From positions 6,230,319 through 6,294,318 of the forward strand of contig NC_087390.1 of assembly GCF_963675165.1 (NCBI RefSeq): a stretch of DNA of 64,000 nt, read 5' to 3'. This document shows positions 2,492 through 62,488 of this stretch, piece after piece. The notes under the pieces were generated by a model. The model had not been told where the DNA came from and searched no databases. It saw only the letters and a list, made by a program, of their open reading frames with translations. This DNA comes from Halichondria panicea. Its lineage: Eukaryota; Porifera; Demospongiae; Suberitida; Halichondriidae. How positions within the stretch are numbered: the first letter of the stretch is position 1; each line of letters starts with the position of its first letter. The position numbers and the translations under genes are program-made.

Positions 2492-5400
2492 ATGGCTCAG
2501 AACAAGACGACCACAAGCAAACCAACAGGTACATTACATAACATGTCCTTACATACACATACATCAGTTTATAAGATATCGAATCACTATGGTCTATGGT
2601 CAATATTGTCATATACTGTAATTATTATTTCTCAGTTTCTGGTGGTAGTAAGAGAAAGCTGGATTTTGATGATGGCAGTCGTACTCTCAAGAATAAGACC
2701 TTCTTCCTCGATCTAAAGGGATACAGAAACCAGGACCAACTTGAGAGAGAACTGACACGCCGAGGAGGACTGGTGCGTGTGTGTGTGTGGTGTGTGAGTG
2801 GGTGGGTGGGTGGGTGAGTAGGAGGACTGGTGCGCGTGGGGGTTTGTGGGTGTGAGTGGGTGGGTGGGTAAGAGGACTGGTGGGTGGGTAAGAGGACTGG
2901 TGCGTGTGTGTGTGGGGGTGTGTGGGAGTGGGTGGGTGGGTAGGAGGACTGGTGCGTGTGTGTGTGTGTGTGTGTGTGTAGCTCTGTGAGGCTGAAGTAC
3001 TTATTTTCACTTTTGTTTTATTTTGCTACAGGTTGAGAAGTTCTTCGATGTTGGTGTCAAGTATTTGGTTACGAACCGTTCCCATGACGACTCGTCAACC
3101 CCCTCCCCCCGCCCCATCTCAACAGGGAAATCCCCCCTGGAGAGTGTGTCCCCTGTGGAGCCTGGGAAGAAGCCAGCCTATCTCACTAGAGCTGCAATGA
3201 TGGTTGCTGCTTCAGTGAGTGTGTGTGTGTGGTGTGGGCGTGTGTTTGTGTGTGATTGATGTCTTCACAGTTTTCTAGATCTTAATTGTCCACTCTATTT
3301 ATACCATTTTCACTTTTAATTCATCTTCCCATCACATGAACAGAAGAAAATATCAGGTAGCAAGAAAAATGTGGATTTGATTGCCATGGCAAAGTCCTGG
3401 GGCTGTAAAGTGATCTCATTGGACGCTCTATTGGCAGAGCTCAAACGATTGAAACCATTACCAAAAAAGGGTGGAAAAATAAAAGCAAGCTGTGGAGTTG
3501 GTGGGTTTATTATTATAAGTTGGCTTGGAATAACTTTGATCACTTTCTGTACTATACAGTGTCTGTCTGGCCACTCTTTTGATTACAGTCATTGTTGGTC
3601 TGCCCAAGTGCCACCATTATAATTATATAGACAAGTTTTACTGCATATTATTATAATATTAAAGGCTACGTACCATACACCAGGTAACTTTCAGGCAATT
3701 CGTTGTAAGCAATGAATTGCCTGAAGTTGCCTGGTTTATGGTGGCCTTATGACTACAAAAGTTCAGTAATGTTGTTTTCTCTGTCTTCTCCAGTTCATCA
3801 CCTCAGAGCGCCCTATCTGAAGGTGGAGGACCAGTCTCGAGGGTACAAGCCTCTAGTCCACGAACCCAAGGTCTGGCCACGCCCACAACACAACACGTCA
3901 CCAAACAGCTGTCCATTCGATGCCCCCAAAACCAAGCGTGAGTATTTCTATGACCACTGCCACTGTTGCAGTTTTTTTAATTATCTATACGACGCTATTA
4001 ACATTGCCAAAAATAATCGTGCGTACCCAGTAGTGTCTGTAAATATATTTTTAATTCTTAAAAAATTATAAAATAATAATTATTGATATTGCTACCAAAA
4101 CGTGTTGTCGTCTTTATTATCTCTCTCTCTCTCTTTGTTACCTCCAGCCCCATATTGTTCTGGTTCTCCTCGGAGTTCCCCTGATAGACCACGCTCCTTT
4201 CATCCCATGATCACTCGCTCAAAGAAACCTGGCTACTGTGAATGCTGCTCCCAGAGATATGAAGATCTTCCCATGGTAAGTCTGGCTGGCTATAAGTGGC
4301 TGTATTATAGAGGGTGGTCTTGCTAACACAGGTCCAAACACATGCTATGGAGAGACTTTGGGGCCCATTAACCTGGCTGTATTATAGAGGGTGGCCTGCT
4401 AACACAGGTCCAAACACATGCTATGGAGAGACTTTGGGGCCCATTAACCTGGCTGTATTATAGAGGGTGGTCTTGCTAACACAGGTCCAAACACATGCTA
4501 TGGAGACTTTGGGGCCCATTAACCTGGCTGTATTATAGAGGGTAGCCTGGTCCAAACACATGCTATGGAGACTTTGGGGCCCATTAACCTGGCTGTATTA
4601 TAGAGGGTAGCCTGGTCCAAACACATGCTATGGAGACTTTGGGGCCCATTAACCTGGCTGTATTATAGAGGGTGGCCTGGTCCAAACACATGCTATGGAG
4701 ACTTTGGGGCCCATTAACCTGGCTGTATTATAGAGGGTGGCCTGGTCCAAACACATGCTATGGAGACTTTGGGGCCCATTAACCTGGCTGTATTATAGAG
4801 GGTGGCCTGCTAACACAGGTCCAAACACATGCTATGGAGACTTTGGGGCCCATTAACCTGGCTGTATTATAGAGTGGTTAGATTTTTTTTTAAATCGCTT
4901 ATTTTATGTAAGGCTTTGTTTCACTGTTGCATGTTCCCATCACGCGTCACGTTTCACTGTGTGTAATACTTTATTAGAAGTCCCTTCATTGTAATTATAT
5001 ACTGTATTGTATAATTGTACACCTGATGACACGCCTCTTCCATTACAGCACTTGAGGAGTGGGAAGCATTCGGAATATGCCAATGACGATAGTAATTACG
5101 CTACTCTGGACAAGCTGATATCACGAGGGGAAAAATATGCCGACTTTGTACGCAAATTGAAGAGGAGGTAAGATGATATTTCTATATAAACTTGTAAGTT
5201 TCTTTTAAATAGATAGATACCCTTGATAGTAAAACTATAATTATATCGTATATCGTATATTGTGTTTATAATGCAAGGTTAATCTATTGTGAATGACACT
5301 GTACAAGCATTTGATTGCGTTTTCTATTGCTTTAGAAAATTTCATGCGCATGCTAACTTTTTGTGTTTCTTTCGATTGTGAATAATTTATACGGCAATTC

Positions 5401-6975: not shown

Positions 6976-8620
6976 ATGACTCTATTATCGAGACGAACAC
7001 TGCTCAACGTAATGGCGGGGATGCTATTGGGGTTAATCATATCTCCCATAATGTGGCTACAGCTGTACTCCCCACCACCTCTCATACAATCTAGCATTAA
7101 CCCTCTGTGTCCTGAATTACCACGAATCCAAATTCGAAATCAAGCAGCTCCTATTCAAAATTCAACTTTGAATGTTCGAAATTTCACAGAATTATCTCGT
7201 GTTGAATTAGATCGAACCATAAATGCTCCAAGTGATACGCAAACCAGACCAAGGCATTTATCTCAAGAATTGGCGCCAAGGAAATTATTACTTGCTGGAG
7301 TTGTTACCGCTCGCAAATATTTAGATACTAGAGCACTTGGAATTTGGAAAACATGGGGAAAAGAATTGAGCGATTTATACTTCTTTTCTTCGCAACCTGA
7401 ACAAAAAGGTCTCGAATTTTTACCAATAATTACTCTGCCAGGAATCAACGATACCAAATATCCACCGCAACGAAAAGTATACCGTATGTTGAAGTACATG
7501 CATGATCACTTTATTGATGATTTCGATTTTTTTTTGCGTTCTGACGACGACGTATACATTAAAACCGACCGATTATTAGAACTACTACAAAACACAAATC
7601 CTGCTCAAGATATTTATATGGGGTGTCCGGGTTTTGGTCGCCCTGACGATCGGAAGAGGATTAAACTGAAGGACAATGAACACTACTGTATGGGGGGACC
7701 TGGTGTCATCTTCAGCCGTAGTGCTCTGAGGAAATTAGCTCCTCATTTGGAAAACTGCCTGGAGGTAAGTGAGAGGATGCATATACATGTACATGTAGTG
7801 ATGAGGCCCCAGAAGTTGAGTACTCCTCAATCAATTCAACATAAATATCAACTGAATAGCTCTCTAAGGATATGATATAAGATATCTCTATTGTATATCC
7901 CCCCCCCCCCCTCCCTGGCCTCATTCCTGATATAACCCTCACTGGAAATGTAAGCCATAATTAAAGTCAACTACCTGTGTACACAGAAAGAAGCCACAAT
8001 TACTTTGCTAAAATAACTTATTATAGTATCATAGGAATGTGCCCACACCTGATCGGTGGTTGTGGTGGTTGGTACCTCTTAGGCCTAGTTTACCACATAA
8101 TAAGTGTTATAGTAACCATGCTGACAGACTGTAACCATGTACCACTTGTCCCTATAGACGGTTGTGGTCAGCTATAACGAGGATGTTGAAGTGGGACGCT
8201 GTGTGAGTGAGAAACTGCAGCTACAGTGCACATGGTCCTGGGAGGTGAGTCACTGTGTATACCCCCACCCCACCCACACCACACCACACACACGCCCACA
8301 CCACACACACATAGTCCTGGGAGGTGGGTCAGTGTGTATACCCCCACCCCCACCCACACGCCCACACCACACACACATGGTCCTGGGAGGTGAGTCACTG
8401 TGTATACCCCACACCACCCACACCACACCCCACACACGCCCACACACACAATCCTGAGAGATGGGGTCAATAATTATGTCAAGCATACCATTGTGAGCTT
8501 TGAGCACTTCTTAACAATGTCTGATTCCTTGTGTGCTTAGATCAGTAATAATTATTGTTTGTGTAGCTTTTGTTGTGCATGTATTAGATATTGAAATGCC
8601 ATCTATATACTATTCACCCC

Positions 8621-10493: not shown

Positions 10494-13400
10494 ATGGAGC
10501 TGAAGAAGGATGTGCTGTTGATGGTGCAGTCGATGGCAGCATCTCTGAGTGAGGACATTGGTCTCAAAGGTGAGCTGTGTTTGTACATGGGGGGGGGGGT
10601 AATATCAAGAGTTCTAGATACAAAGTAACAATGCATGCACGTCTAGTATATAGATATGTCTACCGTACGCGTAAGACCTCGATTTAAGGCGACCCTCCAA
10701 ATATGCGACACCCAGGAGCTTCAGCAATTTCTGACCTCTAAAAATAGCGACAGCTGCGTTGACAATTATTTTTAATGTCACGTTCTAAATAGAGGTAAAT
10801 GTAGCCACTCCCGGATCCCTAGCCTCGATTGTAGCCCACTGTGTTTTTAAGCGGCCTGAAATCGAGGTAAGTAGACTTTGTAAAGTTACCTCCAATTAGA
10901 TGCGACCCTATAAATATGCGACACCAGGACTTCAATATAATTTTTCAACCTCCAAAAGAAGCGACCTCTGGCTTCATAATTATTAAAAAGTGTCGCTTTA
11001 AATCGAGATCTTACGGTATGTGACAACGTATACTGCATTAACGACATTGCAATATGAACTGGTATAATTATTGTATGTATAATTAATGTACATAATATTA
11101 TATATAACCCTTTCAGCCATGAAGTAGAATAAATGCTATTACTATTTTTTAATTTACATGGACTATAATAATTATTATACCATACCCGGGTGTGTGCTCT
11201 CCCTGCTGTCCCTGGGTTGTATTGCCTTCATCCTCTGGCTATAACATTGTACCATACCACTAGGGTGTGTGCTCTCCCTGCTGTCCCTGGGTTGTATTGC
11301 CTTCATCCTCTGGCTATAACATTGTACCATACCACTAGGGTGTGTGCTCTCCCTGCTGTCCCTGGGTTGTATTGCCTTCATCCTCTGGCTATAACATTGT
11401 ACCATACCACTAGGGTGTGTGCTCTCCCTGCTGTCCCTGGGTTGTATTGCCTTCATCCTCTGGCTATAACATTGTACCATACCACTAGGGTGTGTGCTCT
11501 CCCTGCTGTCCCTGGGTTGTATTGCCTTCATCCTCTGGCTATAACATTGTACCATACCACTAGGGTGTGTGCTCTCCCTGCTGTCCCTGGGTTGTATTGC
11601 CTTCATCCTCTGGCTATAACATTGTACCATACCACTAGGGTGTGTGCTCTCCCTGCTGTCCCTGGGTTGTATTGCCTTCATCCTCTGGCTATAACATTGT
11701 ACCATACCACTAGGGTGTGTGCTCTCCCTGCTGTCCCTGGGTTGTATTGCCTTCATCCTCTGGCTATAACATTGTACCATACCACTAGGGTGTGTGCTCT
11801 CCCTGCTGTCCCTGGGTTGTATTGCCTTCATCCTCTGGCTATAACATTGTACCATACCACTAGGGTGTGTGCTCTCCCTGCTGTCCCTGGGTTGTATTGC
11901 CTTCATCCTCTGGCTATAACATTGTACCATACCACTAGGGTGTGTGCTCTCCCTGCTGTCCCTGGGTTGTATTGCCTTTATCCTCTGGCTATAACATTGT
12001 ACCATACCACTAGGGTGTGTGCTCTCCCTGCTGTCCCTGGGTTGTATTGCCTTCATCCTCTGGCTATAACATTGTACCATACCACTAGGGTGTGTGCTCT
12101 CCCTGCTGTCCCTGGGTTGTATTGCCTTCATCCTCTGGCTCACAACTCACCAGCAATCATCCCCACATAGTCAAGGTGACTATATTACCATGCATGCATC
12201 GAATAACAAGTTAGCCCCGTTAATTCCAGCCTGTATAACAAGTTAGTCCCGTATTCCAGCCTTTGGTGACCCTTCAAATAACAGCAATGTTTAGAGCCTA
12301 CACAAAATTATGTTATAATTATACGAAATATTGTTGAATTATAATTATAATTATTTACTACTGTATCTCTGCCCGTGCAGCTCTCACTCCTCACCAATGG
12401 AGGGTACTACTTGACCTCGCTAAGGTTTGGAAATTGGTTGAGCATGTCATGTGATAGGCCTTGTCTAGAGCTACAGAATTCATCTCTTAGTTTTGATATT
12501 GATTGCTTTTTAGTGAAGTTATGACCTCCCGAAAGTAGCTTGCCAAATAGTTCGTTTCCTGAGAAAATACTTTTATCAAAATTGGGAGTTGTACCTTCTC
12601 AGAACTTTACTGAGCATATCATGTGATAGATCTTGTCTAGAGCTACAAAAAGCATCTCTATTAAAGTTGTTAGTGAAATGATGGTCTATATACCAAAAGT
12701 TCATTTTCTCCATTATACAGACGTCTTACCATCGTGAGCACAGAAACGCAGTGTTGGCAGTACTGGACCACGGGGTGGATGTCAACAACTACACTGACCC
12801 AACCACTGGCCTCACTCTATTACTAGTGAGTATGGCTAAGAGGCCTGATGAAGAGAAGTTACAAAATGTTGCCTAGTTGTACTGCTATCCCAGTTTGCAT
12901 GGCAGTATACTGTATGTAGTGCTGTAGTAGTGTTTCTGAATGCACGTACTGTTACTGACAATGTAGTGTGCTTGTTTGAGTGGACAAAAAGAGCTCGTAA
13001 CAACACTACTTGACAAAGGTACCTCCCCCCCACACACACACCACTCCCTCCCCACACCCCCCCCACACACACACACACACACACACCACCCCCTCCCCAC
13101 ACTTACCCTCACCCCACACACACACACACACATACGTACCTCCCCCCACACACACACACACTACCCTTCCCTCACCACACACACACACACACAGGTGCGC
13201 ACCCTAAAGCCGTCACCACCTCGGGTCATTCAGCCTTATCCCTCGCTACCTGGGCCTGCAACACAATCGAAGCTTCTGACCCCGACCTGCTAGATCTGTT
13301 AGCATGCAGAGGAGTGGAGGTGAACCAACAAGATTGCCATGGCAACACGGCTCTCTCAATAGCTGCTCTGTGGGGAAGAGCAGACGTTGTCACAACACTA

Positions 13401-13877
13401 CTTCAAAATGGTAAGAAAAGAGGAAAAGAGGTATCACTTATAATTATTGAGACCATGTGTTCAGGTATCTTTTGCCATCCCTATTCTAGAACCGTATTAG
13501 AATATTTTGCTGGTTAAAAACCGTTGTGAATGACCTGAAAAATTGACCTAAATTGTGTTCTGGCAAGGATCGTGTACCAGTACTATTATTTTTGCGAAGT
13601 GATCAACACTCACAAAGTTTGCATACTATCCCCAGCCTTTATTAAACAGTTGTCAAGCTCATGGTACTACAAGAACAGTCGCTGTAGCTAATGAGATAAT
13701 GCCGAATGTGTCACCAATGCATATGAAGTCTAATTATCACTATAATTATAATCTTGTGTTGTAGGTGCAGACCCTGACGTGTGCGGTGGTGATCATGTGC
13801 GACCTCTTGACCTTGCCGAGGGCTGCGGAAACAATGAGGTTGCTAGGTTACTAGTGGTACACTCCACAAAACATTAA
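10494..13877 (+). CDS. Single-pass membrane ankyrin-repeat protein
   Basis: Exons 10494-10569, 12089-12175, 12381-12424, 12721-12825, 12967-13018, 13195-13410 and 13765-13877 give 230 aa. The first 25 residues (MELKKDVLLMVQSMA...) precede one hydrophobic helix encoded by exon 2 (CVLSLLSLGCIAFILWL). After a short linker come about four ankyrin repeats, with recognisable pieces such as DHGVDVNNYTDPTTGLTLLL, GQKELVTTLLDKG, GNTALSIAALWGRADVVTTL and GADPDVCG...RPLDLAEG. An N-terminal anchor plus a C-terminal ankyrin stack suggests a membrane-tethered binding protein, probably with the repeats cytosolic. I do not recognise an ortholog. Intron 1 contains the 75-bp array of copies of exon 2's beginning; this model uses the last copy. 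Phases close exactly. Confidence 0.8.
10661..11018. repeat. Inverted-repeat element, family H
   Basis: A ~358-bp element in intron 1 of the ankyrin gene. The left end is TACCGTACGCGTAAGACCTC followed by GATTTAAGGCGAC. The right end, inverted, is TACCGTAAGATCTCGATTTA. Interior motifs ATATGCGACACC are also repeated. A small relative with GCGGCTTTAAATCGAAGC lies near 16073-16122. It is non-coding. Confidence 0.75.
11189..12140. repeat. Thirteen-unit 75-bp array duplicating a transmembrane exon and its splice acceptor
   Basis: Units start at 11189 and every 75 bp to 12089. All are identical except one C-to-T near 11989, and the last is truncated by the unique exon end. Each unit encodes the 17-residue hydrophobic helix, then TAA, then CATTGTACCATACCACTAG, which is the acceptor for the next unit. 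Unit 1 is preceded by CCATACCCG and has no AG acceptor. Units 2-13 do. Only unit 13 lacks the stop and runs into the donor at 12176. Confidence 0.95.
12430..12715. repeat. Family C repeat (two part-copies)
   Basis: Contains GCCTTGTCTAGAGCTACAGA, GTGAAGTTATGACCTCCCGA and AAAGTAGCTTGCCAAATAG, and then a second decayed copy (GATCTTGTCTAGAGCTACAA). It lies in an ankyrin-gene intron. Other copies: 24680-24815 (reverse), 33120-33230 (reverse), 44670-44812, 45690-45900, 51000-51090. Confidence 0.8.
13491..13632. repeat. Family B element (partial)
   Basis: ACCGTATTAGAATATTTTGC at the left, GTTCTGGCAAGGATCGTGTA inside, and TGCGAAGTGATCAACACTCA near the right. It matches the full copies at 14026-14243 and 48387-48579. 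It lies in the last intron of the ankyrin gene. Confidence 0.75.
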
Positions 13878-14406: not shown

Positions 14407-15958
14407 TTAATATTTCGAGCAGTCATGGCTTGAATACTGAGTACACATCGAGTCATCAGTTATCTCCTTAAAATCAGTCATACCGGACAGCTTAGAAATG
14501 TCCACAAGGTTACGGAGGTTGCAATAGTTGGTGCCGTAGTCAAGGACAGCATACCACGTCTCAGAAGTGGAGTAGGCCTGAGGAAAATGGAGGATAAAAA
14601 GAGGTTTACAATTACATACAAAACTTAGCCTCCTTCGCAGCCTCTCCTTTTTCTGTTCTTTGTCACACAGGTCAATAAGATAAAATACGGTAAGAATTGG
14701 AGGAACAAAGAAAGAGAGAACGAACCGTCCAAGAAAAAGGAGAGACTCTCCTTTTTCTTAGACGGTTCGTTCTTTCTTTTGTTTCTCTAATTCTTACCTG
14801 TGTGACAAAGAACAGAAAAAGGAGAGGCTGCGAAGGAGGCTATACAAAACTTACAGTTACAGTTACGATTGCCTATAGAGCTCAGAGTAAACAGTGGAGG
14901 TTGTGGCAGTGTGTTATAGACCATTGTATTTCTTTAAGGCGGCGCCTTATTTACATGCAGAAGAAGTATGGTAACGTACAGGGGGGTGGGGCTAACCACT
15001 GTAAAACGTCTATCAGGGCGCCACTTTAATCTTAGCGCCAACTTAAACAGTCTTGGATCTAATATTAATCCTGCAATTTCAACGTGGTCGTCACTCTAAA
15101 TGAGGTGCCTATGTGTTAATTATTTTCTTTTCTATTTTGTAAACAAGAATCGAAATAAAATTATTAGCAGCTACAGGGGAGGGGGATGGGGCTAACTAAC
15201 TCGGCTACAGCTACAGGGGGATGGGGCTAACTCACCGCAACAGTGCAGCTGCCTGCGCCTCCAGATCCAGCAGACAGAGTGAAACTTTGGTCATCCACAT
15301 AGTGCTTCACAGGTGTTTCGTGGGTGGAGTGGATCTCACTACCAGTGTCACTCACAAGCTGTACAAAAGAGATAATTATGGAGTATACAAAATGACTTGG
15401 GATATAAAATGTTATGAAAGTTGACATAATTGTATTAAACCACTTTTGCATGTGATGATATTGCATGTGATGATATTGCATGTGATAATAATTATTGCAA
15501 AAGTGTTTCTTACTTTGTAAAGACACTTCTCTGATGATTTACAGTCTTGAGGGTCGCCAGAGAGATTTGTGATCGTGTACGACAGACAATCGTGAACAAC
15601 TGAGCAGTTGGTCGCTGGAAACATCCTGCACAATGTGTTGGGAACAGATAAGAACTCTACAGTCAGTTGGCATGCATGCGATATACATGGCTTGATCATG
15701 AGTACAAGTAGTTGCAACTTTTATAATATAAAGTCTCAAAGCTACAAAGTCTATGCTAACTAGCTAAATTAGTAATGTTAGCCAGCTCTCAGCTTAGCTA
15801 GATACATATACATAGCTGTACAAGCTAGATACAAGTTAACTAGATGTACAAGATAGTTTGCTAGCTCACCATGTCAGCTTGCAGGATGCATGCAGAGGGC
15901 CGCAAGCTCCTAGGGACAGACAGGCAGCTAACACACACAGCAGGGTAATGGAGGTCAT
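14407..15958 (-). CDS. Small secreted cysteine-rich protein, function unknown
   Basis: Exons 15958-15870, 15625-15514, 15358-15236 and 14577-14407 give 164 aa; all junctions and phases agree. A clear signal peptide (MTSITLLCVLAACLSLGACG, cut near residue 19-20) precedes a mature chain with about ten cysteines. Segments such as CKSSEKCLYKL, ETPVKHYVDDQSF and WYAVLDYGTNYCNLRNLV, with C-terminal SMCTQYSSHDCSKY, look like a real folded family. I believe similar small secreted proteins exist in other aquatic animals, but I cannot name it. There is no membrane segment after the signal. Intron 3 contains a long foldback element. It is divergent from the doubtful ORF at 16212, with 253 bp between the starts. 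Confidence 0.82.
14626..14842. repeat. Long foldback element with flanking direct repeat
   Basis: About 217 bp that folds almost end to end. The left arm TAGCCTCCTTCGCAGCCTCT is the inverse of the right end, and the pairing continues through TTCTGTTCTTTGTCACACAG and GAACGAACCGTC. TACAAAACT (9 bp) flanks both sides, extendable to about 12 bp, which fits a Mutator-like target-site duplication. It lies in an intron of the secreted-protein gene. Confidence 0.88.
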
Positions 15959-17805: not shown

Positions 17806-18301
17806 AAATAAATTATGCATATACCCTATAATTAGAAAATTATTATTATTGTGTCGTCATGCAATTATTATTGCGCAATTTTATTCACTGTAAGGATAGT
17901 CTGCTAATTATTGTGCTATGAATATCATTAAAAATCCCGTATTTAGCATGCATTGGGCTTCATTGATTTAAGTCTACATGTAGTCTGTGGTGCGCGAAAG
18001 AGAGCTGATTGTTGCTTCTTCAGGTAATTTGCAGAATGATTTGTGATGAATAGTTTGCATTTTACTGCATGTATAAAGCTCTAGCTCTGCATAATGTTAG
18101 CCTGTAATTATTTGGTATAGTTGGTATCAAATGCAATGGAAGTAATCATAATTATTATGCATGACTTGTATGTAGTTTACTCTCCAACATACAGAGATAA
18201 CAGATTAATTTTTACAACTATTGCATGTTAGATTAATGTTGTTACGGTCTCATCAAAATAATAATGTTTCTTCACAGATAAAATTAATCTTGCCCATCAG
18301 A
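17806..18301. other. Intergenic, RIIa gene to boule
   Basis: AT-rich, with 3'UTR and a probable 5'UTR. A TTCTTCACAG acceptor-like site ends at 18277, 24 bp before the boule ATG, so the first boule exon may be upstream and untranslated. No other feature was seen. Confidence 0.4.
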
Positions 18302-21171
18302 ATGAATACGCTGGCGTTTGCCCCCACCTCTCCTCAAGCAGTGTACTCTCTCCCTGCTACCATACCCGCCTCAGCAGAGGTCCCAATAATGCAGGTCCAG
18401 GTCGGTGTGGAGATACCCAACAGGGTGTTCGTGGGAGGATGCCCCTACAGTGTGAGAGCTATAGAGAAATATGTGCTGAACGCATGCATCATTATGATAT
18501 TATTATAGCACTGCATGTATCATTATAATATTGAAGGTTTTGAAAGAGAGAATGTGTATGAAAAAGAGATTGAATATGTGGCCTGAATTAAGTTTCAAGT
18601 AAGATTCCTTGGTCCCAGCTGAGGTCCCCTGCATGTATGGCAATGTGGTACAAGGCTTCGTACTCTTGTGCAGTGTGTGTTCACCGTCTTCATGCAGTTC
18701 CCTATTATAACTTTATTGTATTGTGGATGGTTGTCCTGGAAGCATTTGTATTTGTATACTATACCAATACTATAATTATTATGACATAATGATTGTATCA
18801 TGTACTAAGTCCTCCATGCTATATAATACTAACAATCTTGGCCAGAACTAAGAAAAAAAAATCTCCATGTGCATATGTTTTTTCTCTGCTATAGTTTAAT
18901 TAATTGTTAATAAATTAATGCATAGTCATTTCACTGAGGTAGATGGTCAACCACATGGTTACCATTTGTCACTGTCATGGTCCCTCCTACGTGTATATAT
19001 CCCAGAGAGATTTTATCTTGTTGTTTCTTGCCCCATGCACGTGTAATTATAGATGACTGAAAAGGAGCTGGGAGATTTCTTCTGTCAATTTGGGCCTGTC
19101 AAAGACTCAAAAATTGTTTTTGACAAAGCCAGTGGAAAATCGCTAGGGTGAGAACTAATGCACGTATGCATGCCTATACTATCCCATTTTTCACTTATAC
19201 CTGTGTGTATTAGCGCCTCCCATGCACCTCTACCCCAACTGGAGTGTGTAGTAAGGATGGATGCTTCTCAAATGTCCTAGCCTAGTATCTGAGGTCTGTG
19301 ATTACTCCATACACCGTCCCACTAACCCTGGCCTTCTTTGTAGTGGTAAAAGCCTGTAATGTTATTTAGATCCAGTGGAGTACTGCATGCCTGCTGTTGT
19401 GTAAATTCGTGGCTTTGTTCATACTTCAATTAGCAATTTCTGTCTTGAATTAGTGTTGAACTAATCTGATTTTCTTTAATTGCTTGTGTCTCTGTGCAGC
19501 TATGGATTTGTGACCTACATATGTGAGGCAGATGCAGTCAATGTCTACAATAAAGTGAGCCACTACTTATCACTGCATGGAGTGTGTGAATGTGCTGTGT
19601 GTGTACAGCAGCATCATCATCTACAGTGACAGGGCGATATTAAAATGCACACACCCTTAAATCGCCTGTTTTCAGCTGTATAAAGCACTATACCTCCATG
19701 TATATATGTACTTGCTAGCATATGGATGGCATACAGTGATAATGTAGTTAAATGCCATGCATGAAACAATTTAACGTCTTTACAAACATTCACTTTCGTT
19801 TCTAACCTTACAGGGCAGTATTTTCTACAATGAGAAGAAACTCAATGTCTCCAAGGCAATCCGCAAGCATGGTGGACAGTATGTCAGGCCCAACCAGGAG
19901 TATAATAACATGTACGTCCAACCCAATGGCTACTTTGTCGGTGGTGACGGTCTATGGCGATACCAAGCCCCTCAAACACAACCTGTCAGCGTGAGTGTGC
20001 ATTGCCTGCAGATACAATAGTTACAATAGCACATTATTATTATTTTTTGTCTCAACTATAAATTATGTCCCTTAAAGGTCACGCTTTTTTGGTACTTTGA
20101 ACATTATTAATTATTCTAAACTTGGGCCTATCATGTGATTGTGGATTATTCATTGTGTGTATAGCCTCCCACCTTTGCTCCTATATGAATGTGATATTTT
20201 TCGCACTGCAAGGAATTTCCTAGCACCTGACTATCACATCACATGTTCCAATGGTAATCACGATTCTCCAAAAACACCTTAAGTTCATTAATCTCAGCTG
20301 AGCATAATCATGCATGCATTATTGCGTATTCACATTCTTTATTTCTTTCTTTGCAGCCTTACTTTGTGTACATGGCTCCCAGTATGCAGCAGCAACCCAC
20401 CATGCAGTACAGCCTTCAAACTGTAAGTGGCTTTACAACTAAACCTCTCTCTATATTATTTATCATATATAGCCTTTAATTTGGCGATTTGGCGGATTTT
20501 ACCGAAGATTGCCAAATTTAAAGTTTTCCAGTGGACGCAATGTCATTGCTGTAGTAGCCACGCCTATAAGACAACAAATAAATTAAAATAGCTCATTCGC
20601 CAAATATAATATACCCGCCAAATTTTTCCATCTTACAGTAGTTTCACTAATTGCCAGCAAAATGTTCCAATAATAAAACAGTTTTGCATTGTAGTTCCCA
20701 ACATCAAGGGTCTGTACTATAATACTATTTATCCCTCCCTCCATGCAGCCCACCCTCACCCCAATGGCCAGTGCTGCCTACATACCTCAGCATCACTCAG
20801 TGTATCAGTCACCTCTGAAGGTGCCCCCCATCGCTCTGCAAGCTCCTCCAAACCAAGCAGCAGCAGCCATAGAAGTCATCGAGATTGAAACCAGTACAAC
20901 TGTGACCACTAGCAGTTCTGAGCAAGATTCCTCGGTTGAGTCCGACAAAGAAAATACGTTCAAGCCGATCAATTCTTCTCTGTCTAGTGATGAGCAAGGC
21001 ACCGCTGGAACTGATCTCCAAGGTGTCGATTTGGATAGAATTTTCGAACGTCGTAACACGCCCCCTCGTAAAAGACCCTCCCCCCAAAAGGCTGCTCACT
21101 ACGTGTACCCGCAATACCCCGGGCAATTCCCTCAACCAGTCTACCAGACTGCCGGCTATGTACCTATGTAA
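18302..21171 (+). CDS. BOLL: Boule, DAZ-family germline RNA-binding protein
   Basis: Exons 18302-18451, 19053-19147, 19500-19554, 19814-19990, 20357-20422 and 20749-21171 give 321 aa. A single RRM is spread over exons 1-4. RNP2 (RVFVGG) is at residues 41-46 and RNP1 (GYGFVTYI) at 82-89, with the family's TEKELGDFFCQFGPVKDSKI between them and KKLNVSKAIRKHGG after. Exons 4-6 encode a Tyr/Gln/Pro-rich tail, with a Ser/Glu-rich acidic block and a closing YPQYPGQFPQPVYQTAGY. Boule proteins bind mRNA and promote translation during meiosis. The upstream exon may be non-coding, so the start is the first in-frame ATG after a putative acceptor. It converges with the HNH-like gene, 303 bp away. Confidence 0.93.
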
Positions 21172-45200: not shown

Positions 45201-48200
45201 GTGTGGTGGAGGGTGGTTTCAAACATCGTTCCCTCCCAGTGCAAGTGGCAGCCTACAACTCGTGGATGGTCCTCATATCAAACTACGCCATCAATCTAGG
45301 TGAGTTGGGGGTGTGGTCTCGTTACCTAGGTGATGATATGGGTGTGGTCTTGTTATCTAGGTGATGATATGGGTGTGGTCTTGTTACCTTTTTCTCTTAC
45401 AGAATTGTTCACTTCCCAGAAGAGATTAAAGTTGTTGCTAATGCCGCTAGTGGTGAGTGTATCACATGACCCACTCTATGTGTCATATGACTTATTCCAT
45501 GTATCACATGATCCTCTACAGACCTCTGCCGCTAGAAACAAACAGGAGCAGGTGGAGAATGCACGCATCAGCGCATACTGGCATCTGATTGGTCACCTCG
45601 GCCACCACAAGGAAGAGCTGTTTCAACAGGTACACGTACAGACAATATGGAATCTTGTCCAAAACAGTTTTTGCTCCTCCCAGAACTTTAATCTGAGCAT
45701 GTCATGTGATAGGCCTTGTCTAGAGCTACAGAATGCAGTTTTGATATTGATTGATTTTTAGTGAAGTTATGACCTCCCACCTCCCGAAAATAGCTTGTTC
45801 GTTTCCTGAGAAAGTGATGTACTTTCAATGGTATTTTGTCGAAATTGGCAGTTTTTTTTGCCAATAATTATTGAAGTTATGACCTCCCGAAAGTAGCTTA
45901 TCATATTGTGACAGGCTCTGGGAAAACAGACCAATTGGAGCAGATATTGGTATTGAGCAATAGTAGACTGCAGTGTATAATCTCATACATTTTTTTCTTG
46001 GCTTATAGTTATCTACAGTCTTTCTACTACCTCTCTGTAAAATCTGATGCTCTGAATCCAACGCATTCCACCGAAGCGCTTTGTCTAAGCAGCCACCATT
46101 ACCTTACTTTTCCCAATTTAGCAATCTTTAAGTGGGCGTTTCTCATTACTGCTGTTTTACAACTTTGAGTTTCCAACGCGCATAACTCAGGCATAGAACG
46201 AGGTATGTGCAAACTAAGCACATCAATGCGTAGGCAATTCTTTGCTCTATCATCTGGTATATAGATCGCAAAAATTATAGCTTGCGCCAATTGGTCTGTT
46301 TTCCCAGAGAGAGCCTGTCACAATTATGGCTTCTGATATTTAAAATGATTAGTGGCACTATAATCATGACCTCTCAGGTGTGTGTTCCATTCTTGCTTCT
46401 GTGTTTGGGTCTCGATCCCAAAACTGAGACCACTAAGTTTATGTCTCGGTTCCAAACATTCAACACTCGTACCGTTGCCAAGGAAACATTGTCAGAGACA
46501 GAAACGGAGGCACCCAAAGAAAAGGAAAATGTTAGCAAAGAAACGCCGCCTGTAAAAAGTGCTGTGTCAGCAGAAAATTCCGAGGTATGTGGGTGTGGTC
46601 AAATATGCTGTGTTTTTAACAGCTCCTTTTTCACACTATAGTTATCAGAAGAGGTTGTATCTAAAAGGTCAACGGGGTCATTATCCTCTGATATGGGGTC
46701 AAAGTATAATATGGGAGACCTACTGAAATTTGTACACTCGATGCAAGTAAGTCAGTAGGAGTGTGTGTGTGAATAGTGTGTGTGGGTGTGTGTGGGCGTG
46801 TGTGAGCGTGCTTTGTTAGTCACAAACTATTTATAATCACTGTTTAATATCGTGTGGGCGTATATCTTAGGGACTGAATTTTTTCACCGCTCTACTGAGC
46901 ATGAAAGTGTGATCTGATTGGTTGCTATTACTTGATTGATTGATACGTGTTACCCTACTTGTCTACTTGCTGTATGGGATGTGCCTACACTAGTGGGTGG
47001 TGGTGGGTGGTACTAACCACCTCTAGACAACAATAACCACCTCTGCCTAGGCCTAGCTAGTTTACTACATGAAAGAGGCGAATGTGTGTATGTTAAAATG
47101 AGAACTGAGGATTGACAATAGCCACCCACTTAAAAAACAAACTCTGGGCACGTGCAGATCAATGGCTGCTCATATTTCACTGGTATTTATTTACTGTCAG
47201 CATTTCCTCTCTGTCAGGGAGATTAATGTCCTCTGGCAATTAGTCACGTCAGCTGCAAACAAACTTAAAGCCTTTGATGTGATCGTGATGTAAAGATAGC
47301 AATCGCGAATGTAACAATATCAAATGCAGTACCAAAACTCTATGATGAGTGTTATCGTCTAGCCGGTTATCTCTGTATGGTGGAATTTTTCGTGTTCAGA
47401 CGAAAATTAAAACTACGAAATTATTCTACCACAATAGATTCAACGTCACTATCCTGAGCTGTACGAATATTTAGAATACGAAATATTTAATTTGGTAGTT
47501 CATACGAAAATTACCCGCTATACAGTAATTATATTATAACGTGATTATCTTGCTTTATGAATGAATGCAGGCACAGTCCAAGCACATGAATCATTATATT
47601 GGGGAGCCCACTGTTACCATGGTGATGACAGGGTGCCACGCCCTCCTCCAGTTTATTGGAATCAAGATCGATGTCTCCGAGAGTCTCCTAACATCAGGTG
47701 ATATGTCATGTGACTCGTTAACAACCAGGTCCAAACACATGCTATGGAGACTTTGGGGCCCATTAACCTGGCTGTATTATAGAGGGTGGCCTGCTAACAC
47801 AGGTTCAAACACATGCTATGGAGAGACTTTGGGGCCCATTAACCTGGCTGTATTATAGAGGGTGGCCTGCTAACACAGGTTCAAACACATGCTATGGAGA
47901 GACTTTAGGGCCCATTAACCTGGCTGTATTATAGAGGGTGGCCTGCTAACACAGGTTCAAACACATGCTATGGAGAGACTTTGGGGCCCATTAACCTGGC
48001 TGTATTATAGAGGGTGGCCTGCTAACACAGGTCCAAACACATGCTATGGAGACTTTGGGGCCCATTAACCTGGCTGTATTATAGAGGGTGGCCGACACCA
48101 CAATAGACAGACAGACAGTCTTCAGTGTTGGAATGTCCCAGGGGTAGTTGAAGTGTTCAAAATCTAATTAATTAAGCAAATCCACTCCCCTCTTCACACG

Positions 48201-53764: not shown

Positions 53765-56700
53765 CACACCCACCCACACACACAGCACCACACTCACATT
53801 CTGGAAGCTCACATTTGACGCCCACTCAACAGCCCTCGTATATCCTCCAAAACTCAAAGATTATTTTCAGACGTATATTCGCTCGGATAATCACATGAGG
53901 CTCAAACTACCCGGGATTGCCATGGCAACTGCCCCCAATGTAACGGCGGTAAGTGTGTCTGATTATAATAACAAATTAAATGGTCTAAAAAAGACTTCTA
54001 AATCAGACCTGTTTTCGTAGCTAATTTGAACTGTCCATTACTTGTGTTGCAAACGTCCAATTCTAAAGGTATTTAGTAGCACTTTGATAGGTTGACAATA
54101 TGGTGTGCTTAGATCAGTAATTTATTTCGTGCCCAAATTGTCCATTTACTGAAAAAAAGCGTGGGCTATAAGTGGGCGCTTTTTCCAAATCAGGCCTGTT
54201 TTCGTAGCTATGTTTGAGAGGCCATAACTTGTGTTGCGAGCGTCCAATTTCCAAAAAAATTATTTTGTATAGTGTGCTTTGATCAGCGATTTCTTTCAAG
54301 AGTCCAATTTATCCATTTTCGACTTCTTTGTGCAGGCATCTACCCAAGACCTCCTTTGTCACCTTGGCAACACACCACCACGTCACAGTGTAACCATGTC
54401 TCCGAGTCGCCATGACAATGTGTTGCCAAGGGGAGACGTATCCCCAGGTCCTATAGTTCACCCAGTGACATCATCACCTCAGAAGAATGTTAGAGGAAGC
54501 TTCATGAATCGCCACGCCCACACATCTGGCCACGCCCCCAACTCCTCTCTCAAATCACACCCATTTTCACCTGTTGCTAAGGTGCTACATATCGTATAGC
54601 TAGCGGGTATAATTTTTTTCGAGAGTAGTATGAACTTTTGTGCGTTTTTCGCTGATTAAAAATGTACCACCAATAACTGTAATGATGTCTACGAATTTAA
54701 TATTGCATGCATGCTTCCGCAGCTAAAAAAATTGCTAGTCCACGAAAATTAAAATCTGTAACAATTTTTCCGCCAAGTTTATATAATTATACTCTCAAAA
54801 TAATTATACCCGCTATGCGGTATTCTGTATTTTGGACAAGTGATGTATATTCTTGGTTTTACAGATATCTACTTTATTACAGGCTTTGGATGCTGTTCTG
54901 ACTCACTCTGTGTCACGTGACAAGAGGGGTGGGTCACGTGATAGGAGGGGTGGATCACGTGGCAAGAGGGGTGGATCACATGACACAAGAGGTGGAGCAA
55001 AGGAAGTTTCAGCACGAAGGAAATTGTCCCTAAGCAGAGATAATGTGAGAAATAGAATAAAGTGACTTCCGTTGGTCATAATTATTATACCTTAGATCAT
55101 GTTTGCCATAAATACTGCAATTTGATTGGCTAAAGGAAGTGTTCTATCCAACTTAGAAAATCATGTACTTCACTTAGAAAATCATGTAGCAAAGATTAGA
55201 CAAATCTGATTGGCTAAATACTCATGGTTGCTATGATCTAAAATGCTTAGACACTGTTTAGGAAGTTTCCACATGATTTAGAAGTCCTCAGGGCTAATAG
55301 AACCCTCACTGCGTTTGGGATACTACAACCAGCCCTTTGGGCTTCTAAATCATGTAGAAACTTCCTAAACAGTGTCTAACTATTATGTAGTGCCAGGGTG
55401 TCATACAGGATTTTGAAGTAGAGGGGGGAAATGAGAAAAGTAACCAGAAAATGTTGCTAAAAAAAGGTCAACTGTTATTTCAATACCCAGCTATGGACAC
55501 TCAGTCATAATTGAAAGGGGGGGGAAATTGGAGCTAGGGGGGGGATATCCCCCCTTTCCCCCTCCCCTGTATGACACCCTGAGTGCTAGAAATGTATGCA
55601 GAATGCTAGTAATTTTAATTTTAATCCTGACGGTGTTTGTTTGTATCGCACGTTTTTGTAGCCTTAAAATTGGCAGTAAGTTTATGTTTGCATTAATTAT
55701 TTCTAGTACTAGAGTACTGACCCCACCCCCTCCATACACATAGGAGCAGTATGTCCCCATAGCCCCGCCCACCAAGAGACCACGCCTCCTTACACAGCGG
55801 CAGAAGGAGAGACTGAGAGAGAAGCATGCTCTAGATCACTCTCAGGACTTGCCCTTATCCGAGACACAGACACAGAATATGTAAGTGGGGGTGGGTGGAT
55901 TGGATATTTCCCAATTCTGTTAATTAGATCACCCCTTTACGTATCTCTGAATATGATGTCATAATTATTGGTAATTCTGTTAATTAGATCATTCCTTTAT
56001 CTCCATAGGGACGATGATGATGTTATTATAACACACATGTCACCTCCTACCAATCTTGAGAAATGTGCTGACTCAGAAGTCGTTATCAGTATGGTCCCAA
56101 ATACTCGAGTTAACCTTGTCAGTGCCGCCATCATTAACCCTTCAGTCACTACCCCCGTCAGTGCCGCCATCATTAACCCTTCAGTCACTACCCCCGTCAG
56201 TGCCACCATCATTAATACTTCAGTCACTACCCCCGGCAGTGCTGCCACCATCATTAACCCTTCAGTCACTACAGAATTGCCTTCTGCTACTGAACCTGTA
56301 TCTACGGCAATCAAGCATGTTACTACGGCAACAACCAAGTCTATTACTATGGCATCTACGGCAACAGCCAAATCCGTTACTAGGGCAACTACTGCAGCAA
56401 CAATGCATGGTATTATGGCAACTAGACCAATAACAACAAGCCCCGTTACCGTGGTAATTGAACCAACAACGAACCCCGTTACTATGGCATCTACGGCAAC
56501 AGCCAAATCCGTTACTAGGGCAACTACTGCAGCAACAATGCATGGTATTATGGCAACTATACCAATAATAACAAGCCCCGTTACCGTGGTAATTGAACCA
56601 ACAACAAACCCCGTTACTATGGAAACTGCGTCAACTACACCCGTATCTACGGCCACTACACCCGTATCTACGGCCACTACAATCGTAAATCCCTCGGAAA

Positions 56701-59700
56701 AAGTTAGCGAAAGTGGAAGTGGCATAAAATCTCTTAGCTTGAGAACCCGTAGAAAACAGGTTTCCAAACCCCACCCCTCCGAAGCCGCTGCCGTGATGTT
56801 AACTACTCAAGCAGGAAAAATGTTGAAATTACCTCAGGAAAAATCGCTATCAAAATTGCATAATTTACGAGGAGATGTTGTTCCGCATATGAGGACGAAG
56901 TGTTTGGAGGGTTCTAGTACCGCAACTACTTCACTGTCTCCAATTGAAGAAATGCCGCAAGAAAATTTGAAATCATCCGAATCTAGTGACACTATGAAGG
57001 AAGGCTGTGAGGTCGTTATGTTGAATATTGTAAAGATTAACAAGATGACTGCTATCAAAGAAACTGAATCAGTTCCTGAAAATGTGGAATCAAATTCTCA
57101 ACAAATTACCGAAAACTTTGATATTGATACGACCCCATTGAAGAACGCCCACCCTACTTACATCCCCACACCCGTCACAGACTCTTACACCTCCACAGCC
57201 TCCCATACCCTTACACTTGTCACAGCCTCCCACACCCCCACACCTATCACAGCCTCCCACACCTCCACACACAGCACAGAAGGACGACCAATCGGGGCTC
57301 CGACAGATATTGGATTTCAAACATACAGTCGAGATAGCGATGGGAAGATTGTGTGTACTGGAAATGTGCAGAAGACAAAATCAGATTCTCTGAACAAGTC
57401 TAAAAATGTGAGACGAGAGGGGGATTTCCCTGGAGATGGGGATTTCCCTGGTAGACAAATATTTGGGACATGTCTGCTAAATTCTTCGCATGTAAAAACA
57501 GATAATAGCAAAGGTTCTAATTTAGACAATGCCGTTACGGGTGTTGTTGACATGGCAACGAACTCTGAACCTAATATCAAGAACAGTACCGAGAAAGTTT
57601 TGGCAGAAAACACTGCCGTTGCTATCGGTGGTAACGAGCAGCAGAAATTAGAGGCTTCAAAGAAGAAAATTACTGATGACAGGGACAAAGTGGCACCTCC
57701 CCCTAGTGACCCTCCTAGCAACGATGGTAATGGAGTGGAGGTCGACAATGACGACATGACTACAGTTGAGGATACGCAAATGGAGGTAGAAAATAACGAA
57801 GAAAAGTTGGAGGAAACGAACGTTGAAAAGATGCAAGTGCAGAATGATGAATTGGAGGCTACAAATGATGACAAAAGAACGGCTGAGGACACTAGTACTG
57901 AGGCAACAAATGACGAGAAGACGCAAAAGGAGGTCAGAAAGGACGAGTGTGAGGACTTAGAGGATCCTTTACAAGTGGTAAAGGATAAACTGTTAGCCAC
58001 GCCCACTCATCAGCGGACTGTTGTAGCCACGCCCACTCATCAACGGACTGTTGTTGCCACGCCCATTCATCAACGGATAGTTGTTGCCACACCCATTCAT
58101 CAAAGTGAAGTTGAAGCCACACCCACTCATCGACGGTCCTCAGATCCGGCTGGAATACTGAAACACATCAGTCAGTTTGATACGCCCTCCACAGCCAAGG
58201 TGAGGGGTGTGGTCTATAATCAGCCGTTTTGGTAGCTATCTTTGAGAATTGTGTTCAGATTGTCCAATTTCAAAACTGATTGATAGCTCCCTTCCAATGA
58301 TGTGTTTAGATACAAGTTCGGTGATTGTTCAAAATCCATCCATTTAATTAACAAAACCAAAGGCCTTGCAGTTGTTTTTTCAGCCGTTTTGACAGTTATC
58401 TTTGAGAGACTGTAAATGAGTGTTCAGATTGTGTATGACGAGCTCTGTAGCTCTAAGTCTGTTTTTAGACTGTCTGAGATTGCATCTGGTGTGCATTCTT
58501 ATACTGTAATTGTAGTTGGCCTTCTTCAATGGTGGCCATGACGAGCAAGGAACTCCATTTGTACTGTAGCTAGCTAACTCACTTTTGATGGCTGTCTTTG
58601 TTTGATATAGCATTTGTGATATTGTTTTAGTTTTTTTACACGTAGATTTGCATTGATCTGATTGGTCGCTACAGAGTGAGAGGCGTGTCCAGTTTGGAGG
58701 GACAACAGTTCACGTTCCAGCCAGCAAAGAGGTCAAGACTCCGAGCCATGGTGGGTGTGATCAGTAGGGTCATAGGTCATGTGTGGGGTCATTTAGTGTA
58801 CACCAGGAGTGTATGAACTCCTGTGTACACTTTAGTCACGAATTATTATCCATTCCTTTGCACAATTTGATCACCCCTACACACACACACACACCTTACC
58901 CACCCACTCCACACACACAGCTCGTGCAGCTCGAGCGCCCCAGGCTGTATTCTCCTCTAGACGAACACTGCTAACGCTACTCACACCGCCACACAACAAA
59001 ATGATCACTGTACCTAAAGTAAGCACATCAATGGATGCATGTTTTTTATTGTACTAAAATCGTACGGTACAATTTCTACTTTTTTCACTCGTGTCATTCT
59101 TTGCAGCCTCCTGTGACTCCGTCCCTTGGGTCATGTGATCTGGTATACCCGTCACTGACCGAGTGCCCCTCCCCCATCGAGCAGATATTACCCTCCCTGT
59201 CAGCCAGCAAGTCGTACGTTGTCTTGTCAGTAAATATACTGAGTTAGCCTCGGTCCCAGGCCAATTTTTCTTAAAACTGAAAAATGAAATTTAGTACTAA
59301 GCAGTGTTTACTACTCGTCCCCTCACACCTCACACACCTCACACCTCAAACACCTCACACCTCACACACCCACACAGCACACACGGTCTGGTGCAGCTGG
59401 TACGTGCTCGGAACATCACAACTGTTGGCAACATCTCATCTCTCACGGAGCAGCAGGCACAGACACTACCAATCAAGAGTCCAAAGGTCATCAACCTCCG
59501 GAACGCCCTACGATCGTTTGAGCAAAATCTGGTATAAATAATTATAATTGTCATTATTTTAATCATGTTTTCTCTCTCTATGTGCAGGGGTCAAAGCGCA
59601 AGTCATCGACTTCCGATGCTGACTCAACAATACTTCCTCCCACAAAGGTTGCCAAGACGACTACTGAACCTGAGACAAACTCTGACCCCTTGGCGACCTC

Positions 59701-61002: not shown

Positions 61003-62157
61003 TTATATATCACAGCTCAGAGCGGCAGTATGATAGTAGGAGCAATCCACAGCTATACAGTTGCTAGGCAACCCCTCCACTCGTCTCGGCACATCACTAC
61101 GAAACAAATAACGATGACCTTTGGCCTCCGGGTGGCCTAGACGCCCGTCACTGCCACACCCCCAAGTGAACACGCCCCCCTCACGGGTCACAGCCGCACT
61201 ATGGATACCTCCACACACCACACTTATCACACACTCTCCTCCAAAACTGGACGGGTTGATCTTAGTCGGCAACTCTTTGCTCTCCTGACTTCCTAGTCCC
61301 AGTTTCCCCTTGTAACCATCGCCCCACGAATAGATGTGACCATCTATCGTACAAGCTAGTGTGTGGGCGTGTCTTTCTCCCAATGAACAACTGGCTTTTG
61401 CGATAGCAATTCCGTCCAATCCGGTCACATGACTGAGTTTATTTCGGTCTGATTTTCCACCCAATCCAAGCGCTCCGTCCGCCCCTCTTCCGGCCATTAA
61501 TAGCATTCCATCACTGGTAACCACAGCAACGTGCGAGTAGCCACAGCCGACGAATGAGATTGCATTGCCACCGGGAATGTCTATTTTCGTAGGAGATGTT
61601 CGCTCAAGTGTATCACCATGTCCCAGTACGCCATGAGCTCCTGTTCCCCACGACCAACAAGAACCATCTGAAGCGATTGCATACGTATAGTTGTAACCAC
61701 AAGCAACCTGGTTGAATCGAACTCCGCACTCTATCGGCACTTGAACAGGGACAGTCTCAAAAGGGGAGGCTTCTTTAATCATCCCCAGGACATTGTGGGA
61801 TCGATTATAGCCCCAGGCATACAGTTGTCCTTCTGAAGTGATACAAGCAGCGTGCCAGAAACCAGCAGACACTTGCACCGGTGTGTCCCGCAGGACTAAT
61901 TCCGTGGGGTGGGTGTGGTCTTCTTCTGATCCCGTGCCTAATCGACCGTGTTTTCCCCATCCACAGGCAAAAATTTGTCGTTTTTTCGTCCCATCTTTGG
62001 CCTCTATTTCACATAGTAACAGAGTGAAGTGAGCACCACATGAGATTTGGAGGGGGGAGGATTTAGGGAGTTTTACGAATTGTGGTGTTTCGGCTGAAGC
62101 TGTTAGTCCATTGCCAAGTTGTCCGTACTTGCCAAAGCCCCAGCTATACACGGCCAT
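61003..62157 (-). CDS. RCC1-repeat beta-propeller protein (intronless)
   Basis: A single 384-aa exon made almost wholly of seven RCC1 repeats: [90 protein letters not shown] and [15 protein letters not shown]. Each follows the pattern xxxWGxGxxGxLG, and the segments between them carry the usual CG..HT.A/S motifs. Seven blades are a full RCC1 propeller. RCC1 proteins include a Ran exchange factor and many adaptor proteins. There is no nuclear-import tail or second domain to choose, so the role is unassigned. It lacks introns, unlike neighbouring genes. It diverges from spartin with 331 bp between the starts. Confidence 0.9.
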
Positions 62158-62180
62158 CTGTGGGTGTGTGTGTGTGTGGA

Positions 62181-62216
<36 letters not shown>

Positions 62217-62236
62217 TGTGTGTGTGAGGGTGTGTG

Positions 62237-62268
<32 letters not shown>

Positions 62269-62488
62269 GTGTGTGTGTGTGTGAGGGTGTGTGTGGTGTG
62301 TGTGTGTACCTATAAAGTATTAACTAGTCTAAAAAAGTCTATAGAGAAAGTATACACAGACTCCACACAATAGAGCAACTCACCTACAACTTCAATTTTT
62401 GCTGCAGAGGTAGCCCCTCCCCCCTTTTAAACAAAGTAAACAAACCACTGGATTGATTAAATAGCACCTGACTTGCCCCAGAGAAGTA
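62158..62488. promoter_or_regulatory. Bidirectional promoter, RCC1-like / spartin, with (TG)n
   Basis: 331 bp between divergent start codons. The half next to the RCC1-like ATG is a (TG)n tract (62160-62308) with GAGGG interruptions. The rest has no recognisable box. It is not known whether the microsatellite is in the 5'UTR or the promoter. Confidence 0.5.

Follow-up and report, generated by a model that had tools for sequence, protein, structure and literature searches.

The boundary between intron 1 and exon 2 of an ankyrin gene of the sponge Halichondria panicea is occupied by a 75-bp minisatellite in 13 copies, and boundary arrays of this sort belong to an already described kind, the mirages known from amphioxus. 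Quite probably the array is a recent, near-neutral mirage minisatellite, across which exon 1 is spliced mostly to the last acceptor (first exon base 12089), with NMD to deal with mis-spliced transcripts. However striking, the array is probably an ordinary by-product of the expansion of a repeat. All positions refer to the window, i.e., the whole 64-kb stretch of DNA that was analysed, and the features are collected in Table 1.

Table 1. Features of the ankyrin gene, its 75-bp array, and the neighboring boundary array, in window coordinates.
Feature	Position	Strand	Basis
Second boundary array, in the neighboring CHGN gene, with three 5' splice site copies (donors after 8244, 8323, and 8389)	8230..8460	+	
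Exon 1, with ATG, 76 nt, donor AAAG/GTGAGC (8/9 to MAG/GTRAGT)	10494..10569	+	ab initio model, no homology support
MITE-like dispersed element in intron 1, 27-nt terminal inverted repeats 10670-10696/10989-11015	10670..11015	.	inverted-repeat scan, assembly search
Minisatellite, 75 bp x 12.9, across the boundary of intron 1 and exon 2	11174..12140	+	TRF, + strand scan, unit comparison
Eleven decoy units, each with upstream TATAAC, then acceptor CCACTAG; first exon bases every 75 bp from 11264 to 12014	11264..12088	+	
Exon 2, 87 nt, transmembrane segment GCVLSLLSLGCIAFILWLT; sole copy followed by a good donor, AAG/GTGACT	12089..12175	+	ab initio model
Exon 3	12381..12424	+	ab initio model
Exon 4	12721..12825	+	ab initio model
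Exon 5	12967..13018	+	frame and GT-AG kept
Exon 6, ankyrin repeats	13195..13410	+	Pfam match of 230-aa model
Exon 7, ankyrin repeat and stop	13765..13877	+	ab initio model, Pfam

The existence, spacing, and purity of the array are confirmed. TRF gives it 99% matches over its 12.9 copies and the top score among the 80 rows obtained for the window, and on the + strand the 21-mer GGGTGTGTGCTCTCCCTGCTG occurs 13 times, from 11188 to 12088, at spacings of exactly 75 bp throughout. CCACTAG occurs 14 times on the same strand of the window, and 12 of these occurrences lie inside the array, in every copy except copy 1; they comprise 11 decoy acceptors, with first exon bases at 11264, 11339, and so on to 12014, and the true acceptor at 12089. 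The TATAAC ahead of each acceptor we take to be a branch-point-like motif. The 12 complete units differ by a single substitution, C>T at 11979 in unit 11, and the last copy matches the unit over 53 bases and then runs on as exon 2. Copy 1 has an unchanged unit body and, at its left edge, ACCATACC-CGGG in place of ACCATACCACTAGGG, so that it has no AG. Even so, the left edge of the array is still unit-like (CTATAA, ATT-TACCATACC), as is expected if the first copy retains the old intron flank. The repeat unit therefore consists, as in a mirage, of an intron end and the start of an exon, here exon 2, and crosses the boundary of an ab initio gene model with a continuous frame in 13 copies of high identity. 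None of the 15-mers of the array was found elsewhere in the window, and a search with the unit DNA in the 131-Mb, 39-contig assembly returned 13 matches, all of them in this array, although from such a search, with one candidate region at first look, absence is not proof. The locus is present once in the assembly, and 13 is the copy number as assembled. A first-pass annotation of this DNA had described 13 head-to-tail 75-bp copies, twelve of them with CCACTAG, and had concluded from their near-perfect identity that they expanded recently or are still being homogenised, all of which is borne out: judging by one difference in 12 units, the expansion (or homogenisation) of the array is recent. 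The same annotation rightly placed the array in intron 1 but let it extend over 10570-12175; it starts at about 11174, and 10570-11173 is other intron sequence, in part a dispersed element.

The host gene is an ab initio model of seven exons (230 codons plus stop) with GT-AG borders and one open frame, and the model protein has one transmembrane segment and ankyrin repeats. Exons 1 and 2 join in frame (MELKK...FILWL), and the most hydrophobic 19-mer of the protein, residues 26-44 with a mean Kyte-Doolittle value of 2.19, is encoded by exon 2. In Pfam, Ank_2 matches the C-terminal part at E 1e-17, with its best stretch at residues 148-224. This coverage is confined to the ankyrin part, and neither exon 1 nor exon 2 is supported by homology. 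Residues 26-230 contain no methionine, i.e., there is none after exon 1, so that the ankyrin part would need an upstream coding exon with a start. An N-terminal query of 87 residues gave 17 matches, of which 16 lie in this locus; the remaining one, at E 0.015, contains two stops, and no paralogue sharing exons 1 and 2 was among the 17. A paralogue with a like arrangement was not found either among the 150 of 480 candidates that were scored (208 matches); the off-locus matches listed there start at query residue 51 at the earliest. The introns measure 1519, 205, 296, 141, 176, and 354 nt. Intron 1 owes its length to the 900 bp of additional units and to the dispersed element of about 350 bp; without these it would have about 270 nt, in the range of the other introns. 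Of 817 candidate places for copies of this MITE-like element, 40 near-full-length ones were scored, this one included, and the other 39 show 90-93% identity. Further downstream, at 14626-14842, lies a fold-back element with 47-nt arms that are 100% complementary and with inner nested inverted repeats, which looks like a recent MITE/foldback insertion.

If exon 1 were joined to an early acceptor, each of the 11 decoys would, by model translation, give the identical 43 codons (MELKK...FILWL) and then TAA, just as the first-pass annotation had stated. The resulting exons would have 162-912 nt. As the unit of 75 nt is a multiple of three, translation is ended by the TAA at the unit join and not by a frame shift, and the position of this stop would seem to be a by-product of where the duplication breakpoint fell. 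By the exon-junction rule, an mRNA becomes subject to NMD when its stop precedes an exon junction by more than about 50-55 nt. For 11 of 11 decoys the distance from the stop to the exon 2/3 junction is 106-856 nt, so that early-acceptor mRNAs are predicted NMD substrates and should be unstable, and lost expression is likelier than a 43-aa stub protein. The bare membrane anchor of 43 aa that had been proposed as their product is, with NMD to be expected, unsupported. It had also been pointed out that the last copy alone has a donor and reads on. As anatomy this is right, but it follows from any such tandem duplication: once a segment with a 3' splice site has been repeated head to tail, the remainder of the exon stands behind the last copy alone, and this geometry is no sign of design. 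Skipping of the 87-nt exon 2 would join exon 1 to exon 3 in frame and leave a complete 201-aa ankyrin reading without the membrane anchor.

The GTs within the unit score 3-4 of 9 to the consensus MAG/GTRAGT, save one, AGG/GTGTGT, which at 7/9 equals the modelled donors of exons 4-6 and exceeds that of exon 3 (6/9). It lies 1 nt past each acceptor and would leave a 1-nt exon. In a Dscam-like cassette array every copy is a complete exon bounded by its own splice sites, acceptor and donor alike; mutually exclusive or duplicated cassette exons were rejected as an account of the units, since no other GT within the unit scores above 4 of 9. A recursive (ratchet) splice site has AG/GT juxtaposed and defines a zero-length exon. 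The unit reads TAGGGTGTGT, with GT 1 nt beyond the acceptor, so that each hop would add one base, and recursive sites were rejected as well. Two open frames run through the array, one on the + strand and one on the - strand, of 332 and 323 aa. Four Pfam families match them, three of these above the curated whole-protein cut-off, with best stretches of 12-22 residues and none that passes singly; the matches are small chance matches summed across the repeats, and the array was rejected as a coding exon. With 10 pyrimidines in 17 positions, against 9-13 in the other seven acceptors examined, the acceptor of exon 2 can be called neither strong nor clearly weak. All 12 acceptors are identical, as is the sequence ahead of them, so that sequence alone gives 12089 no advantage. 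Adjacent acceptors can pair (predicted duplex -26.6 kcal/mol), and predicted folding gives mean unpaired probabilities of 0.12-0.14 for the ten decoys 11339-12014, 0.35 at 11264, and 0.23 at the true acceptor. Arrays built from shuffled units equal or surpass this in 134 of 200 cases for folding energy and in 136 of 200 for the duplex; RNA pairing between neighboring acceptors was thus rejected as the cause of the decoys being ignored.

Minisatellite-like tandem duplications of exon-intron boundaries, including arrays of intron end and exon start, have been named mirages in amphioxus, where they occur in Adh3 and in the globin genes BflGb6 and BflGb9 (PMC3087553). Both this report and a second one, which adds TnC and PGBD5 to the amphioxus cases (PMC3902484), cite for the Adh locus the primary mirage description by Canestro et al. 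(2002), and the first-pass remark that no described case was known does not stand. The mirages of Adh3 have units of 10-72 bp and show somatic instability, those of the globin genes have units of 150-160 bp, with 81-100% identity in BflGb6, and many units carry AG/GT signals, i.e., potential cryptic sites (PMC3087553). According to the same source, Adh3 data and globin RT-PCR suggest that regular splicing is undisturbed by mirages, and the same is said of Adh and TnC (PMC3902484). For PGBD5, as presented there, non-interference rests on predicted splice sites with little cDNA support, and one annotation takes the repeats as an exon (PMC3902484). The sponge array has in common with the amphioxus mirages a minisatellite unit that crosses a splice boundary and is present in many copies with intact splice signals. 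Amphioxus mirages are further marked by copy numbers that differ between haplotypes; of the sponge locus the assembly contains a single copy. It differs in the animal and the gene, in affecting a transmembrane exon, and in its near-perfect identity throughout, and it has 13 copies compared with 6 and 3 in BflGb6.

The amphioxus cases appear neutral; human and potato cases show that boundary repeats can alter splicing. In potato, a boundary-crossing tandem duplication created a new intron (PMC4974935). That intron lies between two copies, whereas the sole donor-like site of the sponge unit is the AGG/GTGTGT next to each acceptor. For human segmental duplications it is reported that boundary minisatellites can change splicing, and 66% of the intron modifications there have support for the alternative transcript (PMC2812944). 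These internal tandem repeats are like the sponge array in being boundary minisatellites, there with changes of splicing or intron structure, and differ in that they concern paralogues with transcript support and have units averaging 30 bp, in 4 copies (PMC2812944). In human TERT, the copy number of the intronic VNTR6-1 influences splicing and NMD; unlike the sponge array, this repeat is linked to G-quadruplexes, and the abstract of the report mentions no acceptor inside its unit (PMC11830802). No report on boundary minisatellites in sponges stood out among the 15 of 1,163 and 10 of 73 matches listed from a literature collection with few subscription papers.

About 2.7 kb upstream of the 75-bp array, the adjacent gene for a chondroitin GalNAc-transferase (chondroitin N-acetylgalactosaminyltransferase, CHGN) contains the second boundary array of the window. 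Its exon 8158-8244 ends with TCCTGGGAG/GTGAGTCACTGTGTATACC, and of the two further donor copies in the intron the third of the series scores 8/9, equal to the first. The donor at 8244 alone gives the conserved CHGN junction, while use of those at 8323 or 8389 leads to a frame shift and a stop. The junction 8244/8811 is backed by homology, as the CHGN score rises from 274.5 bits for the downstream frame alone to 314.4 bits for the joined protein, and the upstream piece of 29 residues matches CHGN positions 10-35 on its own. With TRF match levels of 99% for the acceptor array in the ankyrin gene and 85% for the donor array in CHGN, the two probably differ in age. A second array next door suggests that this genome makes boundary minisatellites repeatedly.

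Minisatellites with a period of at least 20 are common: the window holds 22, and a further 11 were counted in a 100-kb sample from other parts (10 regions of 10 kb, hand-picked for contig spread from the first 20 of 60 random draws; 13 contigs). Among these 33, the 75-bp array is the longest and the highest-scoring, and 0 of the 11 sampled arrays combine at least 5 copies, at least 90% matches, and a period of at least 30. One sampled array has more copies (25 bp x 17.0, 94%) and one short array of the window is purer (21 bp x 2.3, 100%). The 75-bp array is exceptional in length and purity, not in kind. Two other minisatellites of the window, at 4331-4874 and 47726-48093 and thus 43 kb apart, have by eye a near-equal unit, CAAACACATGCTATGGAGA...CTTTGGGGCCCATTAACCTGGCTGTATTATAGAGGGTGGCC, with TRF periods of 65 and 76, and may represent a dispersed minisatellite family or a repeat born within a mobile element.

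Taken as a mirage minisatellite, the array would have begun with the tandem duplication of a segment comprising roughly the last 23 nt of the intron and the first 52 of exon 2, after which slippage or unequal exchange would have brought it to 13 copies by expansion or homogenisation. For exon 1, the acceptor at 12089 is most likely still the main splicing partner, and it would be favored because a good donor close by bounds that copy alone as an 87-nt exon. Early-acceptor mRNAs would be removed by NMD, and so the array may cost little and be nearly neutral. Against this reading stand the identity of the 12 acceptors, of which the upstream ones would be transcribed first under first-come splicing, the human boundary minisatellites that can change splicing (PMC2812944), and the predicted basis of non-interference in PGBD5 (PMC3902484); moreover, the standing of the array as the longest and top-scoring minisatellite might reflect retention. 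The alternatives are not mutually exclusive. One of them agrees with the mirage reading on the repeat itself and differs on splicing: the 5' part of the gene model might be wrong, with another first exon or with exon 2 being no exon, and the array might be an ordinary intronic or intergenic minisatellite. Homology backs neither of the first two exons, Pfam coverage is limited to the ankyrin part, and no convincing relative was found outside the locus. We nevertheless consider this alternative unlikely, as all seven exons share a single open frame and are bordered by GT-AG, exon 2 encodes the part of the protein with the highest hydrophobicity, and the missing methionine after exon 1 calls for an upstream coding start. 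An error of assembly in the copy number is very unlikely. Near-identical short tandem copies are easily mis-counted, the two versions of the amphioxus PGBD5 sequence have unequal repeat numbers (PMC3902484), and the BflGb6 array was misassembled in the draft (PMC3087553), but the divergent first copy and the one variant-bearing unit anchor the sponge array, so that its number alone and not its existence is in doubt.

Other alternatives assign a function to the array. Each added unit might draw off a share of transcripts to an early acceptor, where a premature stop would expose them to NMD, the copy number setting the amount of full-length ankyrin protein. In favor of this, 11 acceptors match the true one exactly and have a TATAAC of their own upstream, all 11 give NMD-predicting stops, and in human TERT both splicing and NMD reportedly change with the length of an intronic VNTR (PMC11830802); it nevertheless seems rather improbable, as RT-PCR on amphioxus mirages suggests no interference with regular splicing (PMC3087553) and the expansion looks too recent for such shaping, unless the units are constantly homogenised. 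With equally modest prospects, the array could be a heritable rheostat in which more units mean more poison (NMD) or exon 2-skipped transcripts, so that the array would set whether the ankyrin protein is anchored, soluble, or not made. If true, this would be a clean case of a fast-mutating, length-variable minisatellite of bona fide decoy acceptors setting the output of a gene. A switch between membrane and soluble forms, with acceptor competition altering the inclusion of exon 2, would profit from the in-frame junction of exons 1 and 3 with its complete 201-aa reading, but as an exon length is divisible by three with a chance of about one in three, we regard such a switch as highly doubtful. 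The reading put forward in the first-pass annotation, i.e., that splicing to early acceptors produces a functional membrane stub of 43 aa whose share depends on copy number, can point to the 43-codon frame with TAA that exists for all 11 decoys; given the distance of every stop from the next exon junction, which should make the mRNA unstable, and a stop that would stem from the duplication breakpoint, it is extremely improbable.

With this long and nearly pure array, mirage minisatellites are extended to another animal genome, one of only 131 Mb. Its twelve identical acceptors before one donor constitute a natural experiment on spliceosome choice, in which the first acceptor transcribed, the one nearest to a donor, or the one complying with an exon-size rule might prevail.

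Among the other features of the window, whose gene content, with CHGN and an RRM protein, is animal-like, 55965-58232 holds an open frame of 756 codons that is rich in tandem repeats (39-, 135-, and 30-bp units) and matches no Pfam family at E 0.001. A gene at 18300-21171 encodes an RRM protein (Pfam RRM_1, E 6e-10), presumably resembling the boule/DAZ-like germline proteins, and an RCC1-repeat protein is encoded on the - strand at 61006-62319 (Pfam RCC1, 4e-76).
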